Notes under the pieces: model-generated | The model's input: only the letters and a program-made list of their open reading frames with translations | Told to the model about the DNA's origin: nothing | The model's database searches: none | Assembly: GCA_016790425.1 (NCBI GenBank) | Contig: JAEUPF010000062.1 | Span: 1 to 55,204 of the forward strand | Direction: 5' to 3' | DNA length: 55,204 nt | Origin: Rubrivivax sp. | GTDB taxonomy: Bacteria; Pseudomonadota; Gammaproteobacteria; Burkholderiales; Burkholderiaceae_C | Program-made: the position numbers and the translations under genes | In this document: positions 8,980 through 26,534 of the stretch, piece by piece | Numbering within the stretch: the first letter of the stretch is position 1 | How the letters are laid out: each line of letters begins with the position of its first letter

Positions 8980-10637
8980 GGGCGGCCGCCGCCGCCCCCG
9001 GCCTCGCGTTCGCGCAGCTTGAAGCGCTGGATCTTGCCGGTGGCCGTCTTCGGCAGCTCTTCGACGAACTCGATCTGGCGCGGGTACTTGTACGGCGCCA
9101 GGCGGTCCTTGACGAAGCCCTTCAGTTCGTCCTCGTCGGCGCGCGCACCGGGTTTCAGCACGACGAAGGCCTTGGTCTTCGTCAGCCCCTCGGCGTCGGG
9201 GACGCCGATCACCGCCGCTTCGAGCACCGACGCGTGCTGCACGAGCGTCGCTTCCACCTCGAACGGGCTGACGTAGATGCCGCTGACCTTCAGCATGTCG
9301 TCGCTGCGGCCGCTGTAGGTGTAGCTGCCGTCGGCGTTGCGCACGTACTTGTCGCCGCTCTTGGTCCAGCCGCCCTGGAAGGTCTCGCGCGTCTTGCTGC
9401 GGTTGCCCCAGTACATCAGCGCCGCGCTCGGGCCGGCGATGTAGAGGTCGCCGGGTTCGCCGTCGGGCACCGGCGCGCCGCCTTCGCCGCGCAGCGCGAT
9501 CTCGTAGCCGGGCACCGGCCAGCCGGTGGTGCCGTAGCGCACGCGGCCCGGTGCGTTGCTGATGAAGATGTGCAGCATCTCGGTGGAGCCGATGCCGTCG
9601 ATGATGTGCACGCCGCCGAAGTGCGCGGTGAAGCGCTCGCCGATCTCGGCCGGCAGCGCCTCGCCGGCGCTGGAGGCCAGGCGCAGCGCGGTGTCGCCGC
9701 GCCGGGGCAGCGCCGGGTGCGCCAGCATGCCCGCGTAGCCGGTGGGCGCACCGAAGAAGACGGTGGGCTTCAGGTTCGCGACGCCGCCGGTCCAGCGCCT
9801 GAACACCGCCTCGGGCGTCGGCCGCTCGGGCATCAGCAGCGTCGTCGCGCCCACGCTCATCGGGAAGCTCAGCGCGTTGCCCAGGCCGTAGGCGAAGAAG
9901 AGCTTGGCGGCGCTGAAGCAGACGTCGCTCTCGCGCAGGCCGAGCACGGCCTTGCCGTACAGCTCGGCGGTCCAGTACGGGTTGGCGTGCGAATGCACGG
10001 TGCCCTTGGGCCGCCCTGTCGAGCCCGAGGAGTACAGCCAGAACGCCGGGTCGTCGGCGCCGGTGGCCGCCGGCTGCGCCATCGCCGCCTGCGCGCCGAG
10101 GAAGGCTTCGAACTCGACTTCAGCCGGCAGCTGCACGCCCGGCAGCGTGGCGCCGCGCAGTGACGCGGCGGGCCGCGAGACGACGACCTTCTGCACCTCG
10201 TGGTCGGCCTTCGTCAGCGCCGCCTGCAGCGCCGGCAGCAGCGCACCGGAGACGAGCACGGCCTGCGCGCGCGAGTGCTCCAGCATGTAGGCGTAGTCGT
10301 CGGCGGTGAGCAGCGTGTTCACCGCCACCGGCACGCAGCCGGCGTACAGGCTGCCGAGGAAGGCCACCGGCCAGTCGGTGGTGTCCAGCATCAGCAGCAG
10401 CACGCGCTCCTCGCGCTTGAGGCCGAGCGCGCGCAGCGCCGCAGCGAAGCGCCGCACGCGCTCGTCGAGCTGGCCGTAGGTGAGCGTGCCGGCGTCGTCG
10501 GCGAAGGCGGGCTTGCCGGCGCGGCCGGCGTTCACCGCCAGCAGGTGCGCCGCGAAGTTGAAGCGATCGGGCGGGGCCGGCACCTCGGCGGCCGCGGTGG
10601 GAACGGCAGCCATGGAGGCGGTGGGGGCGGTGCTCAT
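8976..10637 (-). CDS. bclA: benzoate-CoA ligase
   Basis: 553-residue AMP-forming acyl-CoA ligase that activates benzoate with ATP and CoA to benzoyl-CoA, the entry step of the box pathway. Seen in order: FNFAAHLL N-terminus, LYAGCVPVAVNTLLT, the phosphate-binding loop YSSGSTGRPKG, IDGIGSTEMLHIF, YSGRSDDMLKVSGIYVSP and the C-terminal PKTATGKIQR with the catalytic Lys. These match the benzoate-CoA ligase family closely. A ribosome site AAGGAG lies just upstream. It is divergent from boxR over a 119-bp shared control region containing a TGCA-N6-TGC element, consistent with BoxR control. The first ~20 residues are a variable extension. Confidence 0.93.
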   Translation of the reverse strand: MSTAPTASMAAVPTAAAEVPAPPDRFNFAAHLLAVNAGRAGKPAFADDAGTLTYGQLDERVRRFAAALRALGLKREERVLLLMLDTTDWPVAFLGSLYAGCVPVAVNTLLTADDYAYMLEHSRAQAVLVSGALLPALQAALTKADHEVQKVVVSRPAASLRGATLPGVQLPAEVEFEAFLGAQAAMAQPAATGADDPAFWLYSSGSTGRPKGTVHSHANPYWTAELYGKAVLGLRESDVCFSAAKLFFAYGLGNALSFPMSVGATTLLMPERPTPEAVFRRWTGGVANLKPTVFFGAPTGYAGMLAHPALPRRGDTALRLASSAGEALPAEIGERFTAHFGGVHIIDGIGSTEMLHIFISNAPGRVRYGTTGWPVPGYEIALRGEGGAPVPDGEPGDLYIAGPSAALMYWGNRSKTRETFQGGWTKSGDKYVRNADGSYTYSGRSDDMLKVSGIYVSPFEVEATLVQHASVLEAAVIGVPDAEGLTKTKAFVVLKPGARADEDELKGFVKDRLAPYKYPRQIEFVEELPKTATGKIQRFKLREREAGGGGGRP

Positions 10638-10697
10638 GACGGGTCTCCTTGTCCTCGCGTGAATCGGCCGCCGCCTGAACTGGACTGCAGCTCGCGC

Positions 10698-10726
10698 TTG
10701 CCAGGCCGGGGTTGATGCAGTATTGT
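10698..10726 (+). promoter_or_regulatory. candidate boxR promoter (TTGCCA-N17-TATTGT)
   Basis: TTGCCA at 10698-10703 and TATTGT at 10721-10726 are separated by 17 bases. The predicted start would be near 10733, giving a leader of about 24 bases before the boxR ATG at 10757. The -10 element lies inside the TGCA-N6-TGC element at 10716-10728, so BoxR binding would block it. The assignment is by eye and moderate. Confidence 0.45.
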
Positions 10727-10728
10727 GC
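10716..10728 (+). promoter_or_regulatory. candidate BoxR operator O1 (TGCAGTATTGTGC)
   Basis: TGCA followed after six bases by TGC. It lies in the divergent bclA-boxR control region and matches three other copies at the boxC promoter. TGCA repeats are, from memory, the recognition feature of the related regulators BzdR and BoxR. Confidence 0.55.
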
Positions 10729-10756
10729 CTGAACCGCGTCCGCCACGGAACCCCGA

Positions 10757-11923
10757 ATGCCCCGCACTCCCTTGCCTGCCCGTGCAGCGGCCGCCGCCGC
10801 CCGCAGCCGGCTCCCGCAGGAGGCGCGCCGTGGGCGCCCGCCGCTGCCGGGGCCGCCGCAACGCGCCGCGGGCGCCAAGGGGGCGAAGACCGCGAACGGG
10901 GCGAAGGGCGGGCAGGTCGCGAAGGCCTCGAACGTGGCGCCGCAAGCCGGCGAAGGCGCCGGCGACAAGCATCCCTTCCTCGTCGCCCTGGGCGAGCGCG
11001 TGCGCGCTCTGCGTTCGCGCCGCGGCATCACGCGCAAGGCGCTGGCTGCCGGCGCCGACGTTTCCGAGCGGCACCTGGCCAACCTCGAATATGGCCTGGG
11101 CAACGCGTCGATCCTCATCCTGCTGCAGGTGGCGCAGGCGCTGCAGTGCTCGCTGGCCGAACTGATCGGCGACGTGACGACCGGCTCGCCCGAGTGGCTG
11201 CTGCTGCGCGAACTGCTCGAAGGCCGCGACGAAGCGACGCTGCGGCGCGTGCGCGTGAGCGTGGGCGAGTTGCTCGGCACCGGCGGCGCCAGCGCCGGCC
11301 GCGACGGCGGCCACCCGCCGCGCGTGGCGCTGATCGGCCTGCGCGGCGCCGGCAAGAGCACGCTCGGCCAGGCCCTCGCCGACGACCTCGGGTTCCCGTT
11401 CATCGAGCTGTCGCGCCAGATCGAGCAGTTCGCCGGCTGCACGATCAGCGAGATCCAGGCGCTGTACGGGCAGAACGCCTACCGGCGCTACGAGCGCCGC
11501 GCGCTCGAGGAGGCGATCCAGATCTACCCCGAGGCGGTGATCGCCACCCCCGGCGGCCTCGTCTCCGACCCGGCCACGTTCAACCTGCTGCTGGCGCACT
11601 GCACCACCGTGTGGCTGCAGGCCGACCCCGAAGACCACATGAAGCGCGTCATCGCGCAGGGCGACCTGCGGCCGATGGGCGCGGCAGCGGCGCGCGCCGG
11701 CCTGCGGACCGCAAGGGGCGGCAGGCCGGACAAGAGCGGCCTCGGCGGCAGCGCCGCCGCCGCGAGCCGCGAAGCGATGGACGACCTGAAGAGCATCCTC
11801 GCCGGCCGCGCCGCCTTCTACTCGAAGGCCGACTTCAGGCTCGACACCAGCGCCCAGCCGCTGGCCGAGACGCACGCGGCGCTGCGCCGCCTGGTGCGGC
11901 GGGCGCTGAAGATGCCCGTTTGA
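10757..11923 (+). CDS. boxR: BoxR: XRE-type regulator fused to a shikimate-kinase-like domain
   Basis: 388 residues. A helix-turn-helix of the XRE family spans about residues 75-130 (FLVALGERVRALRSRRGITR, then RHLANLEYGLGN). A shikimate-kinase-like domain follows, with Walker A GLRGAGKST near residue 195. BoxR represses box genes and senses benzoyl-CoA through the kinase-like domain in known relatives. Two oddities are seen: a ~70-residue Ala/Lys/Gly-rich N-terminal extension with GAK repeats, and a ~27-residue Gly/Arg/Ala insertion at about residues 308-334, between LRPM and SREAMDDL, which I expect to be nearly adjacent in typical members. It is divergent from bclA and followed 165 bp later by boxC with its own promoter. 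Confidence 0.92.
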   Translation: MPRTPLPARAAAAAARSRLPQEARRGRPPLPGPPQRAAGAKGAKTANGAKGGQVAKASNVAPQAGEGAGDKHPFLVALGERVRALRSRRGITRKALAAGADVSERHLANLEYGLGNASILILLQVAQALQCSLAELIGDVTTGSPEWLLLRELLEGRDEATLRRVRVSVGELLGTGGASAGRDGGHPPRVALIGLRGAGKSTLGQALADDLGFPFIELSRQIEQFAGCTISEIQALYGQNAYRRYERRALEEAIQIYPEAVIATPGGLVSDPATFNLLLAHCTTVWLQADPEDHMKRVIAQGDLRPMGAAAARAGLRTARGGRPDKSGLGGSAAAASREAMDDLKSILAGRAAFYSKADFRLDTSAQPLAETHAALRRLVRRALKMPV

Positions 11924-11959
11924 CGGACCGGAGGCACGCCGCGATCGCCCGCCTCGACA

Positions 11960-11972
11960 TGCAACAAAGTGC
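11960..11972 (+). promoter_or_regulatory. candidate BoxR operator O2 (TGCAACAAAGTGC)
   Basis: A TGCA-N6-TGC element abutting the upstream side of the boxC -35 hexamer (11973). Its reverse complement, GCACTTTGTTGCA, differs from O4 at only two of thirteen bases. Confidence 0.55.
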
Positions 11973-12002
11973 TTGACGGCCGCTCGAAGCACGCACTATC
12001 AT
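11973..12002 (+). promoter_or_regulatory. candidate boxCBA operon promoter (TTGACG-N18-TATCAT)
   Basis: TTGACG at 11973-11978 and TATCAT at 11997-12002 each match the sigma-70 consensus at five of six positions, with an 18-base spacer. Transcription would begin near 12010, leaving a leader of about 80 bases before the boxC GTG at 12089. Operator-like elements lie on both sides and over the -10, the layout expected for repression. Confidence 0.6.
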
Positions 12003-12005
12003 GCA
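11993..12005 (+). promoter_or_regulatory. candidate BoxR operator O3 (GCACTATCATGCA)
   Basis: The inverse orientation of the element (GCA-N6-TGCA), covering the boxC -10 hexamer. Confidence 0.55.
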
Positions 12006-12034
12006 TTCGCCTGTCGCCGCCAGCCGCCCAACAG

Positions 12035-12047
12035 GCACTTTCGTGCA
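12035..12047 (+). promoter_or_regulatory. candidate BoxR operator O4 (GCACTTTCGTGCA)
   Basis: GCA-N6-TGCA downstream of the predicted boxC transcription start. The centre-to-centre distance from O3 is 42 bp, four helical turns, and from O2 to O3 is 33 bp, about three turns, so all sites face the same side of the DNA. Confidence 0.5.
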
Positions 12048-12088
12048 TCACCCCCGCCAGTCCCCCGCACAGCCCAGGAGCCGCCGCT

Positions 12089-15266: not shown

Positions 15267-16601
15267 ATGGACATGGCCGTGAGCCCCGTCATCAAGCAGC
15301 ACCTGATCGACCCCGAGATCTGCATCCGCTGCAACACCTGCGAGTCGATCTGCCCGCGCGGCGCCATCACGCACGACTCGCGCAACTACGTCGTCGACGC
15401 GGCCAAGTGCGGCCAGTGCCTGGACTGCATCTCGCCGTGCCCCACCGGCAGCATCGACAACTGGCGCATGGTGCCGCGGGCGCGCGCCTACACCGTCGAC
15501 GAGCAGCTCGGATGGGACAGCCTGCCGGCCGAGCTGAGCGCCGAGCAGCTCGCCGAGGCCGGCGGCGCGGCCGGGGCGGAGACGTCCTCGGTGGCAGCCG
15601 CGGCGGCCGATGCCACGCTGCAGGCCAGTGTCGCGGCGGCCAGCGCGGCGGCCAGCGCGGCGGCCGCTGCCGCCGAGCCCGCCGTCAGGCCCTTCGCCGG
15701 CGCGCAGTACAGCGCCACGCTGCCGCCGTGGTCCGCTGCACACGCCTACGTGAACCTCTACGGGCCGAAGGCGGCGCAGAAGACCGTCACCGCCACCGTC
15801 AGCGGCAACGTGCGCGTCACCGCGGTGGGCAAGGACTACGACACGCACCACATCGTGCTCGACTTCGGCGCCATGCCGTTCCCCGTGCTCGAGGGCCAGA
15901 GCATCGGCATCGTCCCTCCGGGCACGGGCGCCGACGGCCGGCCGCACCACCCGCGCCAGTACAGCATCGCCAGCCCGCGCAACGGCGAGCGGCCCGGCTA
16001 CAACAACCTCTCGCTCACCGTGAAGCGCGTGCTCGAGGACTACCAGGGCCGCCCGGTGCGCGGCGTCGCCAGCAACTACCTGTGCGACCTCAAGGTCGGC
16101 GACAAGGTGCAGGTGATCGGGCCTTTCGGCACCAGCTTCCTGATGCCCAACCACCCGAAGAGCGCCATCGTGATGATCTGCACCGGCACCGGCAGCGCGC
16201 CGATGCGCGCGATGACCGAGTGGCGGCGGCGGCTGCGCACCTCGGGCAAGTTCGAAGGCGGCAAGCTGATGCTCTTCTTCGGCGCCCGCACCAAGGAAGA
16301 GCTGCCGTACTTCGGGCCGCTTCAGAACCTGCCGCGCGACTTCATCGACATCAACTTCGCCTTCAGCCGCACGCCCGGGCAGCCGCGCACCTACGTGCAG
16401 GACCGCCTGCGCGAGCGCGGCGCCGACCTGGCACTGCTGCTGAAGGACCCCAACGCCTGCTTCTACGTGTGCGGCCTGAAGGCGATGGAAGAAGGCGTGG
16501 TGCTGGCGCTGCGCGACGTGGCCACCGAAGCCGGGCTCGACTGGGAGCCCGTGGCCGCGGCGCTCAAGCGCGAAGGCCGCCTGCACCTCGAGACCTACTG
16601 A
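15267..16601 (+). CDS. boxA: BoxA, benzoyl-CoA epoxidase reductase subunit
   Basis: 444 residues. Two [4Fe-4S] ferredoxin motifs are at C19, C22, C25, C29 and C48, C51, C54, C58. A ferredoxin-NADP reductase module follows, with the FAD motif RQYSIASP and the NADPH-site [10 protein letters not shown], ending HLETY. It passes electrons from NADPH to BoxB. The ferredoxin and reductase parts are joined by an Ala-rich linker (residues ~90-140), longer than usual because of 12-bp repeats; the protein is about 30 residues longer than the ~414 I recall for Azoarcus BoxA. The start at 15267 is 29 bp after boxB, with a CCGGAGAA ribosome site. Confidence 0.95.
15633..15668. repeat. 12-bp tandem repeat in the boxA linker
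   Basis: Units at 15633 and 15645 are identical (GCGGCGGCCAGC) and the third at 15657 ends GCT. The unit is in frame and encodes Ala-Ala-Ser-Ala-type repeats between the ferredoxin and reductase domains. Confidence 0.85.
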
Positions 16602-16650
16602 AGCCCGGCGCCCGACCCCGCGCGCAGCCGAGCGCCAACCCCCCTTTCCG

Positions 16651-17469
16651 ATGAGCAGCGTCGCCACCCTCTACGCCACCTTGCAGGTCAGGAACCGCGC
16701 CCGCGGCGTCGCCCAGGTCACGATGGCCCGGCCGGCGGTCTTCAACGCCTTCGACGAAGCGATGATCGCCGAGCTCGACGCCGCGTTCGCCGCGCTCGAA
16801 GCCGACGCTTCCGTGCGTGTGGTGGTGCTTGCCGGCGCCGGCACGCACTTCAGCGCCGGCGCCGACCTGCAGTGGATGCAGCGCGCCAGCCAGGCCACGC
16901 ACGAGTGGAACGTGGCCGACGCGCGGCGCTTCGCCGGCATGCTCTCGCGCATCGAAGCCTGTGCCAAGCCCACCGTGGCGCGCGTCCAGGGCGCGGCGCT
17001 GGGGGGTGGCGTCGGCCTTGCTGCGGCGTGCGACATCGCCATCGCCGCCGACAACGCCACCTTCTCGGTCAGCGAGGCGAAGTTCGGCATCCTGCCAGCG
17101 GCCATCGGCCCGTACGTGGTCAACGCGGTGGGCAAGCGGCAGGCGAAGCGGCTGGCCTTGACCACCGAGCGCATCGGCGCGGCCGAGGCACTGGCCATCG
17201 GCCTCGTGCAGCGCGTCGCGCCCCTGGACGGCCTCGATGCCGCGGTCGACGCCGTCGTGGCGCAGCTCGTCGAAGGCGGCCCGCAGGCGCAACGCGAGAT
17301 CAAGCAGCTCTTCGCGCAGCTCGAGCCCGGGCCGATCGGCGCCAGCGTGCGCGAGCTGACGGCGCAGACGATCGCCCGCGTGCGCGGCACCGAAGAAGCG
17401 CGCGAAGGCTTCGCGGCGTTCCTCGGCAAGCGGCCGGCCGCGTGGGTCCCCCAACGCGACGAGACCTGA
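16651..17469 (+). CDS. enoyl-CoA hydratase of the benzoate operon
   Basis: 272-residue crotonase. Oxyanion-hole motifs are HFSAGADLQWM and GAALGGGVGLAAACD. The acid segment SEAKFGILPAAIGPYVV resembles the methylglutaconyl-CoA hydratase/LiuC branch more than a standard PaaF. By position it probably hydrates 2,3-dehydroadipyl-CoA to 3-hydroxyadipyl-CoA or isomerises the 3,4-double bond. The ATG at 16651 is 49 bp after boxA, with only a weak ribosome site. Being followed by paaH and a beta-ketoadipyl-CoA thiolase supports this role; exact substrate is inferred. Confidence 0.82.
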   Translation: MSSVATLYATLQVRNRARGVAQVTMARPAVFNAFDEAMIAELDAAFAALEADASVRVVVLAGAGTHFSAGADLQWMQRASQATHEWNVADARRFAGMLSRIEACAKPTVARVQGAALGGGVGLAAACDIAIAADNATFSVSEAKFGILPAAIGPYVVNAVGKRQAKRLALTTERIGAAEALAIGLVQRVAPLDGLDAAVDAVVAQLVEGGPQAQREIKQLFAQLEPGPIGASVRELTAQTIARVRGTEEAREGFAAFLGKRPAAWVPQRDET

Positions 17470-17566: not shown

Positions 17567-19150
17567 ATGGACCTTCGCAACACACCGGTGCTCGTGGTCG
17601 GCGCCGGCATCATGGGCGCCGGCATCGCGCAGGTGGCGGCACAGGCAGGCCACGCGGTGAAGCTCTACGACACGCGCGCGGGCGCTGCCGCCGAGGCGAA
17701 GGCGAAGCTGGCCGCCACGCTCGAAGGCCTCGTCGCCAAGGGCCGGCTCGAAGCGGCGGCGGCAGCCGCGGCGGTGGCGCGCATCGTGCCGGTGTCCGCG
17801 CTCGGCGAAGCCGCGGATGCGCAGCTCGTCGTCGAAGCCGTGGTCGAGAAACTCGACGTCAAGCGCGGCCTCTTCCGCGAGCTCGAAGGCATCGTCGCGC
17901 CGTCGTGCGTGCTGGCCACCAACACCTCGTCGATCTCGGTGACGGCCATCGCCAACGGCCTGGCGCACCCGGGCCGGCTGGCCGGCATGCACTTCTTCAA
18001 CCCGGTGCCGCTGATGAAGCTGGTGGAGGTGGTGTCGGGGCTGCAGACCGACGCCGGCGTGGCCGCCGCGATCTTCGAGCTCGCCAAGGCCTGGGGCAAG
18101 GTGCCGGTGCATGCGAAGAGCACGCCCGGGTTCATCGTCAACCGCATCGCGCGTCCCTACTACGCCGAGGCGCTGGCGCTGCTGCTGGAGCGCGCGGCCG
18201 AGCCGGCCGCGCTCGACGCCTGCCTGAAGGCCGCGGGCTTTCGCATGGGGCCGTGCGAGCTGATGGACCTGATCGGCCACGACACCAACTTCGCGGTCAC
18301 GCAATCGGTCTACGAGGCGAACTTCTTCGACAAGCGCTACCAGCCCTCGCTCGTGCAGCGCGAGATGGTCGACGGCGGCCTGCTCGGGCGCAAGAGCGGG
18401 CGCGGGTTCTACCGCTACGGCGGCGGCGCGGGCGGCGGCGGCGCGGGCGACGGCGCTGCCGGCGCGCCGGCCGCCGACACCGCCGCGCCAGCGGCGCCGC
18501 CCGGCGCGCACGAAGTCACCGTGCACGGCGACGGGCCGATCGCCGAGCTGCTGGAGGCGGCCGCCACCCAGGCATTGGCCGGGCACGGATGGGGGCCGGC
18601 GCGCGACCGTGGCAGCGCCTGGACGGGCCTGCGCATCGACGGCGCGCGCCTGATGCTGAGCGACGGCCGCACGGCGCAGCAGGTGGCCGCGGCGATGGCC
18701 GTGGCCGACGTGGCCTTGTTCGACCGCCCGCTCGTTCTGCCCCCGCCACCGGGCACCGCGCTCGCCTTCGCGGTGGCGCCGCAGGCCGGCGACGCCTGGC
18801 GGGCGCAGGTGCCGGGCTGGCTGGCGGCGCTGGGCTTCACGCCGGTGCCGCTGGCCGATTCGCCCGGGCTGGTGGTCACGCGCACCGTGGCCATGCTCGT
18901 CAACGAGGCCGCCGACGCGGTGCTGCAAGGCGTGTGCACGCCCGCGGGCGCCGACGCGGCGATGAAGCTGGGTGTCGCGTACCCCGCGGGGCCTTTCGAG
19001 TGGCTGGCGCGCTGGAGCCCGGGCGGCGCCGCTGCCGGCGGCGGCGCGGCCGCGGTCATCGGCGTCCTCGAGGCACTCGACGCGCACTACCGCGGCGAGC
19101 GCTATCGCGTCAGCCCGTGGCTGCGCCGGCAGCAGGCGGCGGCGCAGTGA
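17567..19150 (+). CDS. paaH: 3-hydroxyacyl-CoA dehydrogenase PaaH (3-hydroxyadipyl-CoA dehydrogenase)
   Basis: 527 residues. It has the NAD-binding VVGAGIMGAGIAQVAA at residues 9-24, the catalytic His in MHFFNPVPLMKLVEV, and the GPCELMDLIGHDTNF block. A C-terminal second dehydrogenase-like domain is typical of the PaaH/PaaC family of ~505 residues. The extra length is a Gly/Ala/Pro-rich linker near residues 285-310. It oxidises (S)-3-hydroxyadipyl-CoA to 3-oxoadipyl-CoA, the step before thiolysis, shared by the phenylacetate and box routes. It is 97 bp after the hydratase and 17 bp before the MaoC-like gene. Confidence 0.9.
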   Translation: MDLRNTPVLVVGAGIMGAGIAQVAAQAGHAVKLYDTRAGAAAEAKAKLAATLEGLVAKGRLEAAAAAAAVARIVPVSALGEAADAQLVVEAVVEKLDVKRGLFRELEGIVAPSCVLATNTSSISVTAIANGLAHPGRLAGMHFFNPVPLMKLVEVVSGLQTDAGVAAAIFELAKAWGKVPVHAKSTPGFIVNRIARPYYAEALALLLERAAEPAALDACLKAAGFRMGPCELMDLIGHDTNFAVTQSVYEANFFDKRYQPSLVQREMVDGGLLGRKSGRGFYRYGGGAGGGGAGDGAAGAPAADTAAPAAPPGAHEVTVHGDGPIAELLEAAATQALAGHGWGPARDRGSAWTGLRIDGARLMLSDGRTAQQVAAAMAVADVALFDRPLVLPPPPGTALAFAVAPQAGDAWRAQVPGWLAALGFTPVPLADSPGLVVTRTVAMLVNEAADAVLQGVCTPAGADAAMKLGVAYPAGPFEWLARWSPGGAAAGGGAAAVIGVLEALDAHYRGERYRVSPWLRRQQAAAQ

Positions 19151-19167
19151 GCGCAGCACACTGACGC

Positions 19168-19617
19168 ATGAGGTTCGCCGAGTTCCACGCCGGCCAGGTC
19201 ATCGAGGCCGGCCCGCATGCGGTGAGCGAAGACGAGATCGTGCGCTACGCCGATGCGTTCGACCCGCAATGGTTCCATACCGACAAGGCAGCGGCCGAAC
19301 GCGGCCGCTTCCAGGGCCTGATCGCCAGCGGCTGGCACACCTGCGCCATCGCGATGCGGCTGGCGGTCGCGGCAGCGCTTGGCGGCAGCGAGAACTTCGC
19401 CTCGCCGGGCGCCGGCTACGTGCGCTGGCCGAGCCCGGTGCGCCCGGGCGACCGCCTGACGCTCAAGGCCACCGTCATCGAGACCCGCCGCTCGCACGCG
19501 AAGGCCACGCTCGGCCTCCTGCGCTGGCGCTGGCAGCTGTTCAACCAGCACGGCACCGAGGTGCTCGACACCGAGGTGACGAGCCTGTTCGACCTGCCGC
19601 CCCTGCAAAGCCACTGA
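19168..19617 (+). CDS. MaoC-like hotdog-fold dehydratase
   Basis: 149 residues of the MaoC/(R)-specific enoyl-CoA hydratase family. The hydratase motif is seen as YADAFDPQWFHTD, then FQGLIASGWHTCAI, where Asp and His are the expected catalytic pair. It could hydrate an enoyl-CoA intermediate with (R) stereochemistry, supplementing the crotonase two genes upstream. Its position between paaH (17 bp) and the thiolase (28 bp) shows it is part of the benzoate operon, but the substrate is not known. Confidence 0.78.
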   Translation: MRFAEFHAGQVIEAGPHAVSEDEIVRYADAFDPQWFHTDKAAAERGRFQGLIASGWHTCAIAMRLAVAAALGGSENFASPGAGYVRWPSPVRPGDRLTLKATVIETRRSHAKATLGLLRWRWQLFNQHGTEVLDTEVTSLFDLPPLQSH

Positions 19618-19645
19618 TTCGACCGCACCGAGGAGTTCACCCGCC

Positions 19646-20851
<1,206 letters not shown>

Positions 20852-20868
20852 GCCGGGAAGGACGAGTC

Positions 20869-21288
20869 ATGAGCAAGACGACGACGATGAACGTCGAGAT
20901 CCGCTTCGGCGACTGCGATCCCGCGGGCATCGTCTTCTTCCCGCGCTACCACCGCTGGATGGACGCTGCCTCGCTGCACTTCTTCATGAGCAACGGCGTG
21001 CCGCCGTGGCACGTGCTCGAGCACGAGACGGGCATCATCGGCACGCCCTTGCTCGAGCACCACGCGCGCTTCGTCAAGAGCGCCACCTACGGCGAGAAGA
21101 TCCTCATCACCACCTCGATCCAGGAGTGGCGGGCCAAGGTCTTCCTGCAAAAGCATGTCATCACGCGCGGCGACGACCTCATCTGCGAGAGCGTGGAGAC
21201 GCGCATCTTCTGCAAGCGCGACCCCGCCGACCGGCGTCGCATCTACGGCGTGCCGGTGCCGGAGGACATCCGCCGCCTGTGCGAATGA
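20869..21288 (+). CDS. 4-hydroxybenzoyl-CoA thioesterase-type (4HBT) thioesterase
   Basis: 139-residue hotdog-fold thioesterase. The block FGDCDPAGIVFFPRYHRWMD carries the catalytic Asp of the Pseudomonas 4HBT type. In benzoyl-CoA clusters such enzymes are thought to release CoA from dead-end acyl-CoAs or excess benzoyl-CoA; that role is inferred from place. The ATG at 20869, with GGGAAGGACG upstream, is 17 bp after the thiolase and is the last gene of the box operon before a convergent terminator hairpin. Confidence 0.87.
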   Translation: MSKTTTMNVEIRFGDCDPAGIVFFPRYHRWMDAASLHFFMSNGVPPWHVLEHETGIIGTPLLEHHARFVKSATYGEKILITTSIQEWRAKVFLQKHVITRGDDLICESVETRIFCKRDPADRRRIYGVPVPEDIRRLCE

Positions 21289-21359: not shown

Positions 21360-21851
21360 TCAGCGCTCGCGGTGCGGGTCGGCAGCCCACGGTGCGGAGG
21401 GCCGCTTCGTGCGCGCCAGCCAGTCGTCCAGCGCCTGCACGTGCTCGGTCTCCTCGGCGGCGAACTCCGCGGCCAGGCGCTTGACTTCCTCATCGCTCGA
21501 AGTGATGCCGGCGTCGCTGTAGTACTGCATCGCGCGCAGCTCGTTCTCGCGCGCGTAGCGCAGCGCATCGTAGGCGTTGAGCGTCGGGTCGAAGGCTTCC
21601 TCGCCGCCGGCTTCGGGCGGCTGCCGCCACGCGTAGTCCCAGGGGCCGAGCGTCGGCAGCGAAACGCCTTGCGCGCGCTCGACGATCGAATCGTGGTGCA
21701 GCCGCGAGTAGCGCACCATGTCGCGGAACAGCGAGGCCACCTCGTCGTTGCGGTGCGCCTCCATCATGTCGGCGAGCTCGAGGTAGCGCTCGGCCGCCTC
21801 GCGCTCCAGCGCGATGGCGTGGGCGAGGAACTGCGCGAGGGTGTAGTCCAT
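21360..21851 (-). CDS. stand-alone ferritin-like protein
   Basis: 163 residues with no signal peptide. Four helices carry ferritin/rubrerythrin-like positions: LEREAAERY near residue 16, ENELRAMQYY in the third, and AEETEHVQAL in the fourth, giving an ExxH. The second helix (MVRYSRLHHDSIVE) lacks the expected Glu of its ExxH, so the dimetal site may be incomplete or altered. It is the last gene of a four-gene operon that begins with a rubrerythrin-ligase fusion, 11 bp after the dehydrogenase. Function is unknown; peroxide or oxygen protection, or electron/iron supply to the fusion enzyme, are possibilities. Confidence 0.75.
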   Translation of the reverse strand: MDYTLAQFLAHAIALEREAAERYLELADMMEAHRNDEVASLFRDMVRYSRLHHDSIVERAQGVSLPTLGPWDYAWRQPPEAGGEEAFDPTLNAYDALRYARENELRAMQYYSDAGITSSDEEVKRLAAEFAAEETEHVQALDDWLARTKRPSAPWAADPHRER

Positions 21852-21862
21852 GGCCGCCACCT

Positions 21863-22633
21863 TCAGCCGGCCATCGTCAGCCCGCCGCTGACGCTGAGCA
21901 CCTGGCCGGTGACGTAGCCGGCGCCGTCGCCGGCGAAGAACAGCACCGCGTCGGCCACCTCTTCGGGCCGGCCGAGGCGGCGCATCGGGATCGCCTTCTT
22001 CAGCGCCTCGGTCACCTTCTCGGGCACCGCGGCCATCAGCGGCGTGTCGGTGGGGCCGGGGCAGACGCAGTTGACGCCGATGCCGTAGCGCGCCACCTCG
22101 CGCGCCAGCGACTTGGTGAAGGCGATCAGGCCGCCCTTGGCGCCGGAGTACACCGTCTCGCCGAGGCTGCCCACGCGCCCGGCGTCGCTGGCGATGTTGA
22201 TGATGCGGCCACCGCCATTCCCACCGCCACCGCCCCTGCCGCGCTCGATCATCGCCAGGATGAACGCCTTGGCCAGCCGCATCGGGCCGACGAAGTTCAA
22301 GGCGATGATCTTGTCCCACAGCTCGGGCGAGCCTTCCCAGAACGGGTGCGTCGTGCCCCAGCCGGCACCGTTGACGAGCACGTCGGGCGTGCCGAAGCGC
22401 GCCTGCACGTCGGCGGCGAAGGCGGCGATCGACGCCGCGTCGGTCATGTCCACGCGCACGAACTGCGCCTTGCGGCCGGCCGCGCGCAGCGTGGCGGCGC
22501 GGCTCTCGCCGGCGTCGGCCTGGATGTCGGCCACGATGACCAGGGCGCCGGCTTCGGCGAGCTTGGCCGCGGTGGCCGCGCCGATGCCGGAAGCCGCGCC
22601 GGTGACGACGGCCAGTTTGTCGACGAGGCTCAT
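21863..22633 (-). CDS. SDR dehydrogenase resembling 2-hydroxycyclohexanecarboxyl-CoA dehydrogenase (BadH)
   Basis: 256-residue classical SDR. TGAASGIG at residues 12-19, NGAGWG, and the catalytic YSGAK are present, followed by CPGPTDTPL and the C-terminal SGGLTMAG. The segment GWGTTHPFWEGSPELWDKI resembles the BadH branch that oxidises 2-hydroxycyclohexanecarboxyl-CoA. A glycine-rich insertion (GRGGGGGNGGGR, near residue 135) precedes the strand leading to the catalytic Ser. It overlaps the preceding crotonase gene by ATGA (22630-22633), so the two are translationally coupled, suggesting hydratase then dehydrogenase on one alicyclic or aliphatic acyl-CoA. Confidence 0.8.
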   Translation of the reverse strand: MSLVDKLAVVTGAASGIGAATAAKLAEAGALVIVADIQADAGESRAATLRAAGRKAQFVRVDMTDAASIAAFAADVQARFGTPDVLVNGAGWGTTHPFWEGSPELWDKIIALNFVGPMRLAKAFILAMIERGRGGGGGNGGGRIINIASDAGRVGSLGETVYSGAKGGLIAFTKSLAREVARYGIGVNCVCPGPTDTPLMAAVPEKVTEALKKAIPMRRLGRPEEVADAVLFFAGDGAGYVTGQVLSVSGGLTMAG

Positions 22634-23526
22634 GAGGTGGATCCTTCTTTCGGGTTGGCAGTGCCGCGTTCGACGGGCCTGTCGTCGACGGCGGACTTGG
22701 GGACGGACCTGTCGAGGAAGGCCGCGACGCGGCGCCGCGTCTCGGGGTCCTGGTAAAGGCGCCGCGTCGCCTCGATCTCGGCGGCGAAGCCGACGCCGCC
22801 GGGCACGCCGGCCAGTGCGATGCAGCGCTTGTTCTCGGCGAAGGCCACGCGCGGCATCGCGCCGTAGCGGCGCGCCAGCGCAGCAGCCTCCTCGGCCAGC
22901 TGCTCGCGCGGCACGGCCCATTGCACGAGACCCAGGCGCGCGGCCTCGGCGGCACGCGGCGTCTCGGCCCCGAGGATCAGCCGCCGCGCCAGGCCGTGGC
23001 CCACCAGCCGCGTCAGGCGCTGCGTGCCGCCGGCGGCGGCGAGCAGGCCGAGCCCCGCTTCGGGCAACCCCACGCGCACGTCGTCGGCCGCGATGCGCAG
23101 GTCGCAGGCCAGCGCGAGCTCGAAGCCGCCGCCGAGCGCCGCGCCGCCGAGTTCGGCCAGCGTCACGCACTCCAGCGCTTCGATGCGCCCGAACACGCGC
23201 TGCATGCGGCGCACCGTGCCGAGCATCGCCTCGCGGCCCTGCGCGGTGGCCACGCACGAGCGAATCAGCGCCAGGTCGGCGCCGGCCGAGAACACCTTGC
23301 AGGCGCTGCGCAGATGCAGCACGGCGAGTGTGTCGTCGGCCTCGACCTGGTCGAGCACGGCCTCGAGTTGCGCCAGCAGCTCGTCGTTGATCGCGTTCAC
23401 CGGCGCGCGCTGCAGCGTCAGCACGAGAACTTCGCCGGCGCGCTCGGCGCGCACCAGCGCTTCCGCCGCCGGCGGGACCGCGCCACGCGCGGCACCGGCT
23501 ACCGGCTGCGGCGCGGCGCCGATCAT
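22630..23526 (-). CDS. enoyl-CoA hydratase/isomerase (crotonase), BadK-like context
   Basis: 298 residues with a ~25-residue Ala/Pro-rich N-terminal extension. Crotonase motifs are FSAGADLALI, GGAALGGGFELALACD and LPEAGLGLLAAAGGTQRLTR, containing the usual oxyanion-hole and Glu positions. It overlaps the upstream fusion gene by ATGA (23523-23526) and the downstream SDR by ATGA. Paired with a BadH-like SDR, it could hydrate a cyclohexenecarboxyl-CoA-type intermediate as BadK does. This is inference from gene order; a generic beta-oxidation role is equally compatible with the sequence. Confidence 0.82.
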   Translation of the reverse strand: MIGAAPQPVAGAARGAVPPAAEALVRAERAGEVLVLTLQRAPVNAINDELLAQLEAVLDQVEADDTLAVLHLRSACKVFSAGADLALIRSCVATAQGREAMLGTVRRMQRVFGRIEALECVTLAELGGAALGGGFELALACDLRIAADDVRVGLPEAGLGLLAAAGGTQRLTRLVGHGLARRLILGAETPRAAEAARLGLVQWAVPREQLAEEAAALARRYGAMPRVAFAENKRCIALAGVPGGVGFAAEIEATRRLYQDPETRRRVAAFLDRSVPKSAVDDRPVERGTANPKEGSTS

Positions 23527-25619
23527 CGCTGCCCGCCCTGCTGCCGGTGCAGCTCCACGAGCTTGCGCCGCAGCAGCTTGCCGGTGGGCCCGCGCGGGAA
23601 GCTGTCGACGGCGTGCAGCCAGCGCGGGCGCTGGTACGGCGGCAGCGTGGCGGCCACCTGTTCGAGCGCGGCGCGCGCGCGCTCGGCGTCGGCAGCGACG
23701 TAGAAGTACGCCACCGCGTCGACGCCGTCGGCGTCGGGCACGCACACCGCCGCGCCGTCGTTGACGGCGCCGGCCTGCGCGGTGAGCTTCTCGGCCAGTT
23801 CGACCAGGTTGACCCAGCGGCCGCGGATCTTGACCAGCGAATCCTCGCGCCCGGCGAACTGCCAGAAGCCGCCTTCGGTGCGCTGCCACAGGTCGGCCGG
23901 GCAGAACGCGCCTTCGCGGAACGACTCGGCCTGCGCGATCGGGCGGTCGTAGTAGCCCGAGGCCAGCGTCGCGCAGCGCACGAGCAGGCGCGTCGGCGTG
24001 TCGCGCGCGGACTCGTCGAGCGCGCGGATCTCGACGCCGGGCGACGGCAGGAAGCCGCGCTCGTCCGCCGCCTGCATCACGAGCACCAGCGTTTCCGAAG
24101 CGCCGTAGCCGTCGATGATCGGCAGGCCGCTCGCGCTCACCCAGCGCCGGCGCAACTGTGCCGGCAGCGCCTCGCCGGCGGAAACGCACAGGCGCACACC
24201 GGCGGCGGCGATGGCGCCGGCCGCCGATTCGTTGAGCAGGTCGCGGTACAGCGAAGGCACGCTGAACAGCACCGTCGGCCGCATGCGCGCCACGGTGGCG
24301 GCGACGCCCTTCGCGGTGGGCCACTGCGCATCGAGCACGAGCGTCGCACCCAGGCGCAGGCCGGCCAGCAGCAGGTTCGTCAGCGGGTAGGCGAAGAACA
24401 GGCGCGAACTGGCGAACAGGCGGTCGCCCGGCGCGATGCCGAAACGCTCGGCCGAGATGCGGCCGATCTCGCGCACGCAGCGGTGCGTGTGCACGACCGC
24501 CTTCGGCTTGCCCGACGTGCCCGACGAGTGCACCCAGAACGCCGGCGCCTCCTCGGGCATCGGCACGGCCGGCAGCGGCGGCGTCGCCGACACCGCGGCG
24601 CGCGCTTCATCGACGAGGCTGACGCGGGCATTCCACGGCGGCGGCGTGTCTTCGGCCGACTCGGCGACGATGACATCGAACCCGGCTTCCTCGAGGATGA
24701 ACTGCCACTCCGGCGCCGGGATGCGCGGGTTGACGCCCACCGCCACGCCGCCGGCCCAGATGGCACCCAGCCAGGCGACGACCCAGTCGAAGCCATCGGG
24801 CAGCTTGACGGCGACGCGGTCGCCCGGGCGCAGGCCGCGCTGGCGCCACAGCGCGCCGGCGCGCGCCACGCGGTCGCGCAGCTCGCCGTAGCTCATGCGC
24901 TTGCCGTCGCATTCGATGGCGATCGAAGCGGCGTCGTGGCCGGCGAGCAGCAGTTCGGCGCCGTTGAGCTGCGGTGCTGCTACGGCTGCGGCGGCGGCCG
25001 CGGCGCCCGCGGCCGGGCGTGCCGCGCCGGCGCGCGCCTGCCAGCGCGACAGCTCGGCGTCGAGCATGCGCTCGTGCTCGCGCTCCTCAGCGTTCAGCTC
25101 CTCGTACAGGCGCTGCTCGGCCGAGCCGGGGATGGCGGCGGCGGCGCTGGCGGCGAACGTGGCCGCGGCCCGCTGCTCGAAGCCGATGGCGATGCGCAGC
25201 AGGTCGGAAGGGTCGCCGATCAGACGGTCGATGCCGGCGAAGACCACCGCGGTCTGCAGCGAAGCCAGCGGCGGCGGGTCGGGCACGTCGACGCGGTAGC
25301 GCCGCGCCAGCGCCTCCATGTGCTCGCCTTCCATCACCGCGAAGCGGCGGAAGAGCTCGCGCAGCGCCGGGTCGGCGCAGTCGACGGCGGCGCGCTGGTA
25401 GAACGCGCGCCCGCCGAGCTCGATCTCGAAGGCGGTGCGCACCGCCGCCAGCGCCGGCGTTTCGGCGCCCGCGGCGGCCGCCGCTGCACCGTCCGCGCCC
25501 GGCGCGCCCGCGTTGCCGCATTGCACGAGCACGCCGCCGCACTTCGGGCAGCGGCCCCAGGGGAAGGCAAAGCCAACGCTTCCCTCGCCGCAGCCGGCGC
25601 ACTGCCACTGGCAAAGCAT
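23523..25619 (-). CDS. reverse-rubrerythrin-like domain fused to a benzoate-CoA-ligase-like acyl-CoA ligase
   Basis: 698 residues. Residues 7-27 form a rubredoxin-like ribbon (C7xxC10, C24xxC27). Residues ~60-190 form a four-helix diiron bundle, with Glu65/67, E97xxH100, E148 and E179xxH182 as likely ligands. After an Ala-rich linker (~195-216) comes a complete AMP-forming ligase: WVHSSGTSGKPKA phosphate loop, DGYGASETL, GREDSLVKIRGRWVN and the C-terminal PRGPTGKLLRRKL with the catalytic Lys. The ribbon-first order is that of reverse rubrerythrins. I know of no characterised enzyme with this architecture. The ATG at 25619 has GAGGAA about ten bases upstream and begins the conserved ribbon, but the frame stays open upstream into the TRIC gene to 26534. 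The substrate is probably an aromatic or alicyclic acid. Confidence 0.85.
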   Translation of the reverse strand: MLCQWQCAGCGEGSVGFAFPWGRCPKCGGVLVQCGNAGAPGADGAAAAAAGAETPALAAVRTAFEIELGGRAFYQRAAVDCADPALRELFRRFAVMEGEHMEALARRYRVDVPDPPPLASLQTAVVFAGIDRLIGDPSDLLRIAIGFEQRAAATFAASAAAAIPGSAEQRLYEELNAEEREHERMLDAELSRWQARAGAARPAAGAAAAAAAVAAPQLNGAELLLAGHDAASIAIECDGKRMSYGELRDRVARAGALWRQRGLRPGDRVAVKLPDGFDWVVAWLGAIWAGGVAVGVNPRIPAPEWQFILEEAGFDVIVAESAEDTPPPWNARVSLVDEARAAVSATPPLPAVPMPEEAPAFWVHSSGTSGKPKAVVHTHRCVREIGRISAERFGIAPGDRLFASSRLFFAYPLTNLLLAGLRLGATLVLDAQWPTAKGVAATVARMRPTVLFSVPSLYRDLLNESAAGAIAAAGVRLCVSAGEALPAQLRRRWVSASGLPIIDGYGASETLVLVMQAADERGFLPSPGVEIRALDESARDTPTRLLVRCATLASGYYDRPIAQAESFREGAFCPADLWQRTEGGFWQFAGREDSLVKIRGRWVNLVELAEKLTAQAGAVNDGAAVCVPDADGVDAVAYFYVAADAERARAALEQVAATLPPYQRPRWLHAVDSFPRGPTGKLLRRKLVELHRQQGGQR

Positions 25620-25719
25620 CGTCGGGTGTTCCTCGTCGCTCGGTCCCGGATGGGCGCGCCCAGCGCGCCGGCTCGGGCGCCCGACGGCAGTCCCCAGCGT
25701 CACTGCATTCTGGTACCCG

Positions 25720-25748
25720 AATACAGCTATGAACTTGACCTGGTTCAA
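25720..25748 (-). promoter_or_regulatory. candidate promoter of the rubrerythrin-ligase operon
   Basis: Read on the minus strand, TTGAAC (25748-25743) and TGTATT (25725-25720) are 17 bases apart, in a locally AT-richer patch about 100 bp before the ATG at 25619. The elements are only moderate matches, but the drop in GC content is clear against the surroundings. Confidence 0.35.
25730..25747. promoter_or_regulatory. inverted repeat TGAAC-N8-GTTCA over the candidate promoter
   Basis: TGAAC at 25730-25734 and GTTCA at 25743-25747 form perfect 5-bp arms across an 8-base spacer, inside the spacer and -35 of the candidate promoter. It is a possible operator for an unknown regulator. Confidence 0.3.
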
Positions 25749-25892
25749 CCGCTGCGCCGCCCTGGCAACCGGGGGAACCCGCACGCCGACCGGCGCCGGC
25801 GGCGCCGAGCGCGCGCAGGCGCTGCGCGTTACCGGGCGTGTCTGCCGCGGGCCGGCGCTGCAACGGCCGCTGCAACGGCCGCGGCGGTCTTC

Positions 25893-26534
25893 ATCGCCGC
25901 CGGGGCGCCACGCCGGCAGCCGGTAGCCGGTCCAAAGCGCCGCCGCGCGCAGCGCGCTCGCCGCGGCGGCACCGGCCACCAGCGCCGCCTCGTCGCCGGC
26001 GCCGAAGCGCGTGGCCAGCACCGTCACCCAGCCGCCGGCGAAAGCGCACAGCGCATACGGCCGGTGGTCGCTGAAGGCGCGCGGCACCTCGTTGCAGACG
26101 ATGTCGCGCAGCACGCCGCCGAAGACGGCGGTGACCATGCCCATCAGCACCGCGGCCAGGGCCGGCAAGTTCGCCGCCAGCGCCACCTGTGTGCCGCCGG
26201 CGCAGAACAGCCCCAGGCCCAGCGCGTCGGGCCACTGCATCGCGCGCTCGGTGGGCGCGAAGTGGCGCGCGCGCATGAACAGCATCGCCGCGATGCAAAG
26301 CGCCAGAAGCAGCCACAGCCACACCGCGTGCTGCACCCAGAAGAACGGCCGCCGGTCGAGCAGCACGTCGCGCAGCGTGCCGCCGCCGAAGGCGGTGAGC
26401 CCGGCGACGACGACCACGCCCACCGCGTCGAGCCGCTTGCGCGCCGCCTCGATGAGGCCTGACAGCGCGAAAGCCACCGTCGCCACCACCTCGACGACCG
26501 ACTGCGCGAGCGACAGCGACGGCAACGCGATCAT
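25893..26534 (-). CDS. TRIC/YadS-family cation channel protein, no in-frame stop of its own
   Basis: A membrane protein with the duplicated three-helix unit of the TRIC (UPF0126/YadS) family. GGGTLRDVLL in the first repeat and GGVLRDIV in the second are the hallmark motifs, with about seven hydrophobic helices. Family length is ~205-215 residues, so the protein should end near 25893. Instead the frame stays open for another ~90 codons of atypical composition and then, without a stop, through the whole rubrerythrin-ligase gene to 23523 (1003 codons in all). A TGA in the neighbouring frame at 25891 lies just where the family normally ends, so a one-base frameshift is the simplest explanation. 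The end coordinate is approximate. Confidence 0.7.

Follow-up and report, generated by a model that had tools for sequence, protein, structure and literature searches.

A single gene of Rubrivivax sp. joins a reverse-type rubrerythrin to an aryl-CoA ligase. It lies on the minus strand at positions 23523 to 25619 of the 55,204 nucleotides of contig JAEUPF010000062.1 that we analysed as a whole (hereafter the window), and its 698-aa product carries, in this order, a rubredoxin-like ribbon, a ferritin-like diiron bundle, an Ala-rich linker and a complete AMP-forming ligase. The initial annotation of the window had placed a ribbon, a four-helix bundle and a complete ligase in one frame without giving the strand; its coordinates and its count of 698 codons were correct, and all three parts were confirmed by Pfam (PF02915, PF00501) and motifs. 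The fusion is a genuine and conserved domain architecture. Open fusion genes were found 58 times in 57 of 78 loci, and therefore the joined gene is no assembly error; these open fused relatives rule out a sequencing or assembly artefact as well as a fusion private to the window. A stop or frameshift at residues 195-216 was looked for and found neither in the window nor in the 58 relatives, and the objection that homologues might carry the two domains only as separate genes fails, since the joined gene recurs. The architecture comes with a shared gene order and with co-occurring genes, and its ligase tree agrees with one origin and subsequent losses. Among the papers listed by searches of an open-access library (most subscription journals lie outside this scope), none was found to describe a rubrerythrin-ligase fusion; the initial annotation, too, knew of no characterised enzyme with this layout. 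To our knowledge, this rubrerythrin is the only one whose fusion partner takes no part in electron transfer. The gene and its parts are as follows:

23523..25619, minus strand: fusion gene, reverse-rubrerythrin plus aryl-CoA ligase, 698 aa (open frame, domain matches, 58 open relatives)
25521..25610, minus strand: rubredoxin-like ribbon, residues 4-33, C7xxC10 and C24xxC27 (alignment, motif)
25026..25457, minus strand: ferritin-like diiron four-helix bundle, residues 55-198 (Pfam, models, fold search, conservation)
24972..25025, minus strand: Ala-rich low-confidence linker, residues 199-216 (pLDDT below 50 at 201-211, family length)
23535..24971, minus strand: AMP-forming aryl-CoA ligase, residues 217-695 (Pfam, sequence and structure searches, conservation)

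The GC content of the window is 73%, and the plus-strand translation of 23523..25619 is likewise free of stops; it is the minus frame that encodes the domains. This frame stays open upstream as far as 26534 (a 1003-aa frame), through a glycine-transporter-like gene (PF03458). We treated the open frame joining the two genes as chance in DNA of such high GC content, the alternatives being a sequence error or a lost stop. The ATG at 25619 was taken as the probable start, because GAGGAA stands before it and no Pfam domain falls within 25620-25889. No promoter-like site was found at 25500-26100. The AlphaFold model of the 698-aa product reached a pLDDT of 85.5 and a pTM of 0.84, with pLDDT below 50 only at residues 36-51 and 201-211.

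By profile and motif, the N-terminal half is best classified as a reverse-type rubrerythrin without the seventh ligand of the classical proteins. Residues 61-189 match the Pfam family Rubrerythrin (PF02915) with 27.8 bits, above the gathering cutoff of 22.8. All candidate diiron ligands, four Glu and two His (E67, E97xxH100, E148, E179xxH182), are present as the initial annotation had stated; none of the 58 relatives lacks any of them, apart from one sequence that a contig end truncates at E67. Classical rubrerythrins have an extra ligand Glu in helix 3 (ExxE), their seventh; its place is occupied by A151 in the window protein, and this position is invariant in 45 aligned sequences. PMC11926857 gives four Glu and two His as the rubrerythrin diiron site, and PMC5114695 describes the 'reverse' group, with a ribbon N-terminal to the ferritin-like bundle; both describe peroxide reduction by rubrerythrins with a rubredoxin-like centre. 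Among the 50 solved structures listed as matches of the whole model, all were ligases, synthetases or adenylation domains, and the N-terminal part was therefore modelled separately. It formed a four-helix bundle (pLDDT 84.7), whose best fold matches were the ferritin-like structures 2fzf and 2oh3, with a probability of 1.00 but E-values of at least 2.5e-3; no match had an E-value of 0.001 or below.

Of 55 untruncated relatives, one (L110) has lost the ribbon cysteines C7, C10, C24 and C27; the other 54 retain all four. A pattern search detected an extra ribbon upstream of them (CxxC...C[C/G]) in 51 of these 55 sequences, and it is absent from the window protein. At 25613-25608 (minus strand) the window protein reads MLC-QWQC where the relatives have MLC(PxC...CC..)QWQC; about 24 residues, this first ribbon included, have been lost cleanly. 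The stretch between W193 and N219 spans 16-37 aa in the family.

The C-terminal half is, judged by profile and motif, an aryl-CoA ligase, and judged by TIGR02262 it is not a benzoate-CoA ligase. The AMP-binding domain PF00501 covers residues 232-557 with 198.8 bits, and the nearest solved relative by sequence is the benzoate-CoA ligase 2v7b (E 8e-56). The ligase motifs S366-K373, E509, D576, R591 and K681 are present, which we take to be the P-loop, the A5 Glu, the A7 Asp, the A8 Arg and the A10 Lys, respectively. E509, D576 and R591 are found in 58/58 relatives, K373 in 57/58, and K681 in all 55 rows reaching that far. In an NCBIfam search of the 698-aa product, the top matches were HbdA and benzoate-CoA ligase, both far under their cutoffs: the 3-hydroxybenzoate-CoA ligase model NF053567 (HbdA) was the best match by E-value (4e-94) at 315.8 bits, with a cutoff of 1000, and the benzoate-CoA ligase model TIGR02262 gave 251.4 bits, with a cutoff of 375.25. 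The place of BadA H333, which together with I334 is a mutated pair in structure 6m2o going by the title of that entry, is V512 in the window protein and never His in the 58 relatives (Val 47, Ile 7, Ala 2, Ser 1, Leu 1). The BclA encoded in the box cluster of the window keeps the His. A canonical benzoate-CoA ligase was therefore rejected on the missed cutoff and the pocket His replaced by Val. The fused module would help to give a name to this gene, for which sequence models by themselves suggest no more than a vague place among benzoate-CoA ligases. A tblastn search of plasmids with the fusion returned 1345 records, none covering 80% of the query; the 25 matches listed involved the ligase part only.

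The N-terminal part has matches in 14 of 299 genomes from this family; nine besides the window have full-length fusions, and in one more (G462), counted among the 11 fusion genomes below, the fusion is truncated by the end of its contig. GTDB species genomes were also scanned: 218 matches were confirmed, and all counts over loci rest on the 80 that were retained. They make up 78 loci, with the 58 fusion genes in 57 of them, the ligase alone in 6 and the rubrerythrin alone in 15; some are the same contigs as loci of an earlier-fetched set (e.g., L074 and L057). No other full-length fusion was among the matches listed for 369 spread genomes of the class. Relatives aligned with the window protein show 55-75% identity. 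According to record titles, the fusion is common to Ramlibacter, Rubrivivax, Ideonella, Piscinibacter and relatives; named isolates include Ramlibacter monticola, R. alkalitolerans and R. lithotrophicus, and the remainder are mostly metagenome-assembled genomes. One contig titled Anaerolineales (L102) is probably mis-binned, because its fusion almost equals that of an Aquabacterium locus (L101; ligase end branches 0.011 and 0.035). One Ramlibacter cluster (L109) has two diverged fusion genes, at 10001-12049 and 18925-20990, the second on a long ligase branch, and the two possibly differ in substrate.

The genes around the fusion follow a common order in the relatives: thioesterase, a pad-like molybdenum oxidoreductase trio, PaaK-type ligase, hcrC-hcrA-hcrB, in part of the loci an NfnAB-like gene (nfn), fusion, enoyl-CoA hydratase/isomerase (ECH) and SDR dehydrogenase, followed by an optional ferritin, an optional thioesterase, ECH2, acyl-CoA dehydrogenase and others. 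The immediate upstream neighbour of the 58 fusions is nfn in 23, hcrB in 20, another gene in 9, a contig end in 5 and hcrC in 1. Over the 57 fusion loci we counted ECH 39 times, SDR 37, hcrB 32, ECH2 30, nfn 25 and acyl-CoA dehydrogenase 20. These numbers are lower bounds, because many loci stop at contig ends (flanks of about 10 kb on either side are available for 26/57, shorter ones for the others). Restricted to loci with at least 5 kb upstream, hcrA or hcrB is present in 25/37; with at least 3 kb downstream, ECH is present in 33/45. The hcrA and hcrB genes of one locus (L067) score above their family cutoffs, and hcrC of another (L059) slightly under (245.6 vs 257.8). The labels padBCD and NnrS are our assumption: padB and padC stay under the cutoffs of their best models, padD has no match and the NnrS-labelled gene has no Pfam match. 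The label paaK stands for TIGR02155 with 578 bits, under its cutoff of 646. The SDR protein is nearest to BadH, and the acyl-CoA dehydrogenase ranks by score with cyclohexanecarboxyl-CoA dehydrogenase models; both stay below the cutoffs of these alicyclic models. After the cluster, many loci (L063, L065, L074, L090, L095 and others) carry the NnrS-labelled gene (26 of 57), a hemerythrin (PF01814; 19) and a GNAT gene (PF00583; 21). The hemerythrin is a further oxygen-related iron protein near the fusion cluster.

In the window, the fusion is followed by three genes on the same strand, which supports the earlier description of the fusion as the first gene of a catabolic operon, and by a convergent thioesterase gene:

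22630..23526, minus strand: ECH gene (PF00378, ATGA overlap with the fusion gene; 39/57 fusion loci)
21863..22633, minus strand: SDR dehydrogenase gene (nearest BadH model, under cutoff; ATGA overlap with the ECH gene; 37/57 fusion loci)
21360..21851, minus strand: second, stand-alone ferritin-like protein at the end of the operon (relative of solved 2oh3, E 3.7e-58; 18/57 fusion loci)
20869..21288, plus strand: 4HBT-type thioesterase, convergent (same arrangement in relatives; 13/57 fusion loci)

A box cluster lies at 9-21 kb of the window, with its own benzoate-CoA ligase (TIGR02262, 806 bits, cutoff 375). The hcr genes are on another contig of the same genome (C137), which has the pad-like trio, paaK and hcrCAB in the conserved order; behind hcrB, where the ligase is encoded in many relatives, nothing up to the following conserved gene matched a reference. 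Evidently, the fusion block was split from hcr in the lineage of the window, and the fusion-ECH-SDR-ferritin-thioesterase block now stands beside the box genes. A fragment of benzoyl-CoA reductase B is found on contig C131 of this genome. Relatives of the stand-alone ferritin-like protein occur on C131 and in a benzoyl-CoA reductase locus of another genome (L073). Rfam and tRNA scans of the window gave no matches, and no TGCA-N6-TGCA site, a BoxR/BzdR-type operator, is present in it.

Across the 299 family genomes, hcrA was detected in 11/11 fusion genomes and in 7/288 others (Fisher p 9e-16, related genomes not being independent), and boxB in 10/11 and 150/288, respectively (p 0.012), a weaker link. 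With hcrA in all 11 fusion genomes of the family and hcrB in 32/57 loci, 4-hydroxybenzoyl-CoA reductase is co-encoded with the fusion, although hcr is not adjacent in the window. We extended the comparison to 50 further named fusion genomes, which leave out seven fusion loci (L102, L105, L115, L120, L124, L127, L129). In these, boxB was found in 46, hcrA in at least 46 (57% identity or more) and a BcrB-like benzoyl-CoA reductase in 44 (66% identity or more); the query is BcrB by TIGR02260, and a second benzoyl-CoA reductase reference is BcrA by TIGR02259. Therefore, bacteria with the fusion tend to have the benzoyl-CoA route that depends on oxygen as well as the oxygen-free one. Fusions with nfn as the immediate upstream gene have a ribbon (p 0.0006) and a bundle (p 0.002) that are more conserved, measured against the ligase, than in the other fusions (Mann-Whitney, 23 vs 30 genes, uncorrected for kinship). 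In phylogenetically independent pairs, an average of 4.5 were for this effect and 0 against (p ~0.06). This fits NfnAB as electron donor, without proving it.

In the rooted ligase tree (64 rows; outgroup support 100/100), six unfused ligases are nested in the fused clade at three places. The outgroup included L072 but not L014, L019 and L020, and eight fused rows that were short or nearly identical to others were omitted. By parsimony, the simplest account is a single fusion, after which the rubrerythrin part was lost three times or more. One unfused ligase, that of Aquabacterium humicola (L128, 9971-9997), begins with MPCPPCHPP at its likely start, 12 bases before 9983, where its ligase domain scan began. 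This stretch is likely a relic of the first ribbon of the lost module. Stand-alone rubrerythrins of this type adjoin an NfnAB-like gene in 14/15 loci and are fused to it in 4, and one contig (L067) ends after hcrB-nfn-rubrerythrin. The fusion therefore likely arose by the joining of rubrerythrin and ligase genes behind nfn. The rubrerythrin tree, from which nine fused rows were left out, is compatible with such an origin but weakly resolved, and two stand-alone rows (L137, L139) fall among the fused ones.

We infer the activities, substrate, electron path and protective role of the fusion as follows. Our preferred reading, which we regard as having an even chance of being right, is an aryl-CoA ligase for an aromatic acid tethered to a reverse-rubrerythrin peroxide reductase that shields oxygen-sensitive reductases in oxic-anoxic shifts. 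The C-terminal half would convert an aromatic acid and ATP to the CoA ester; because the ligase accompanies the hcrCAB genes, 4-hydroxybenzoate or a close relative is the likeliest substrate. Electrons would pass from NAD(P)H through the NfnAB-like flavoprotein and the rubredoxin-like ribbon to the diiron site, where H2O2 (or O2) would be reduced to water. The tether would fix the ratio of the scavenger to the entry enzyme of the pathway, and the downstream molybdenum and iron-sulfur reductases may thereby survive oxic-anoxic shifts. Benzoyl-CoA and 4-hydroxybenzoyl-CoA reductases are oxygen-sensitive, and facultative aromatic degraders run such reductases under intermittent oxygen. If true, a peroxide-reductase module joined to the entry ligase would explain directly, and in a testable way, how they cope, and the recurrence of the joined gene suggests an oxygen defence built into clusters for the oxygen-free breakdown of aromatics. 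Of the protection from peroxide or oxygen proposed in the initial annotation, the general idea remains plausible, with other enzymes as its object. Aryl-CoA ligases are described as oxygen-insensitive in PMC8388817, so that a domain guarding the ligase itself is unlikely.

Several observations weigh against this tethered-reductase reading. The hcr genes, present in 28-32 of the 57 loci, are rarer there than ECH and SDR, which leaves a substrate other than 4-hydroxybenzoate open; neither hcrA nor hcrB occurs in 12 of the 37 loci with at least 5 kb upstream. The proposed electron donor is missing from between hcrB and the fusion in the 20/58 cases of direct adjacency, and in the genome of the window the NfnAB-like genes are on a separate contig (C110), not with the fusion. 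First-ribbon loss (0/23 with nfn vs 4/30 without) does not differ significantly (p 0.12). Ligases without the rubrerythrin part exist in 6/78 loci, reached by the losses described above, and the tether therefore appears dispensable. In the lineage of the window, besides the missing ribbon, the rubrerythrin branch measures 0.39 vs about 0.17 in its sisters; the ligase branch (0.17 vs about 0.19) is not lengthened.

It is possible, if doubtful, that the ligase instead serves side-chain or alicyclic acids (hydroxycinnamates, phenylpropionates, cyclohexanecarboxylates), whose CoA esters would go to the adjacent ECH, SDR, ECH2 and acyl-CoA dehydrogenase, with the rubrerythrin still acting as peroxide reductase. 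The frequency of these four genes beside the fusion (39, 37, 30 and 20 of 57 loci, and ECH in 33 of the 45 with sufficient downstream sequence) and the resemblance of two of them to BadH and to cyclohexanecarboxyl-CoA dehydrogenases favour such substrates, as does the window itself, where the fusion accompanies ECH-SDR and not hcr; a pocket with Val or Ile instead of H333 could be wider. But hcrA and hcrB are retained at each of the six ligase-only loci, ECH at only one and SDR at two, the SDR and acyl-CoA dehydrogenase stay under the alicyclic model cutoffs, and the single thiolase reference used (window 19646-20851) matched only 1/57 fusion loci (L117, 25% identity). That the rubrerythrin half is a passenger from an accidental fusion of neighbouring genes, its diiron site being of little fitness value, is unlikely. 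The repeated losses with the relic MPCPPCHPP, the absence of the first ribbon in the window and four relatives, and a rate of evolution of this part above that of the ligase in four pairwise comparisons would agree with a passenger; the retention of the diiron ligands in 58/58 relatives (one cut at E67) and of the second-ribbon cysteines in 54/55, despite only 55-75% identity to the window protein, would not. The same holds for the pN/pS of the rubrerythrin part, which at 0.5-0.7 is below 1, in GC-rich DNA with constrained third positions.

The diiron domain might also act as a redox-coupled entry valve, sensing or consuming O2 or H2O2 and setting, via the mobile ligase, whether the acid enters the anaerobic reductive route. 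We consider this quite improbable, and a bolder form would have the domain act directly on nascent aryl-AMP or aryl-CoA; if true, substrate activation and oxygen defence would be a single enzyme function. The version of the initial annotation, in which the domain protects BoxB or gates the aerobic (box) activation of benzoate, seems very improbable. Its box context holds in part: the box genes adjoin the fusion block in the window, boxB is more frequent in fusion genomes (10/11 vs 150/288, and 46 of the 50 named ones), and one of the two closest relatives, Ideonella H3_PRO2 (75% identity), has boxB and the fusion about 20 kb apart on one contig. The flanks of the 57 other fusion loci (about 10 kb on both sides in 26, less in the others), however, contain no match to boxB or boxC, and BoxB was rejected as a conserved partner; frequent neighbours there are the hcrCAB genes of an anaerobic route. 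The boxB and boxC references are sound, and the boxA reference (15407-16654) is probably in the wrong frame, without a family match, so that its zero is uninformative. Moreover, the box cluster has a benzoate-CoA ligase of its own, and the association with hcrA is far tighter.

The fusion resembles several known systems in part. With benzoate-CoA ligases (TIGR02262; BadA, BclM 2v7b) it shares the fold, the AMP-binding motifs and the catalytic residues, and it differs in its score (251 bits vs a cutoff of 375), in V512 for H333 and in the extra N-terminal module. HbdA (NF053567) is the best NCBIfam match by E-value, but 316 bits fall well short of the cutoff of 1000. Like the reverse-type rubrerythrins, the protein has the ribbon first and then a bundle with four Glu and two His; unlike them, the window protein is fused to a CoA ligase, has Ala151 at the place of the helix-3 Glu of classical rubrerythrins and gives weak matches to solved folds. 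The C-terminal part of PRK12775 (NF009413), an NfnAB-like flavoprotein with a ferritin domain, matches residues 4-195 of the fusion with 193.8 bits; this is the ferritin part alone, and the whole-protein cutoff of 1895 is not reached. PRK12775 unites the ferritin domain with the protein presumed to donate its electrons, whereas the fusion unites it with a ligase, and nfn is a separate gene directly upstream in 23/58 relatives. HydR, a chimera of [FeFe] hydrogenase and rubrerythrin that reduces H2O2 according to PMC11926857, is likewise a natural fusion of a rubrerythrin with an unrelated enzyme. There the rubrerythrin receives the electrons for H2O2 reduction from its partner, itself a redox enzyme, whereas the CoA ligase of the fusion described here supplies none.

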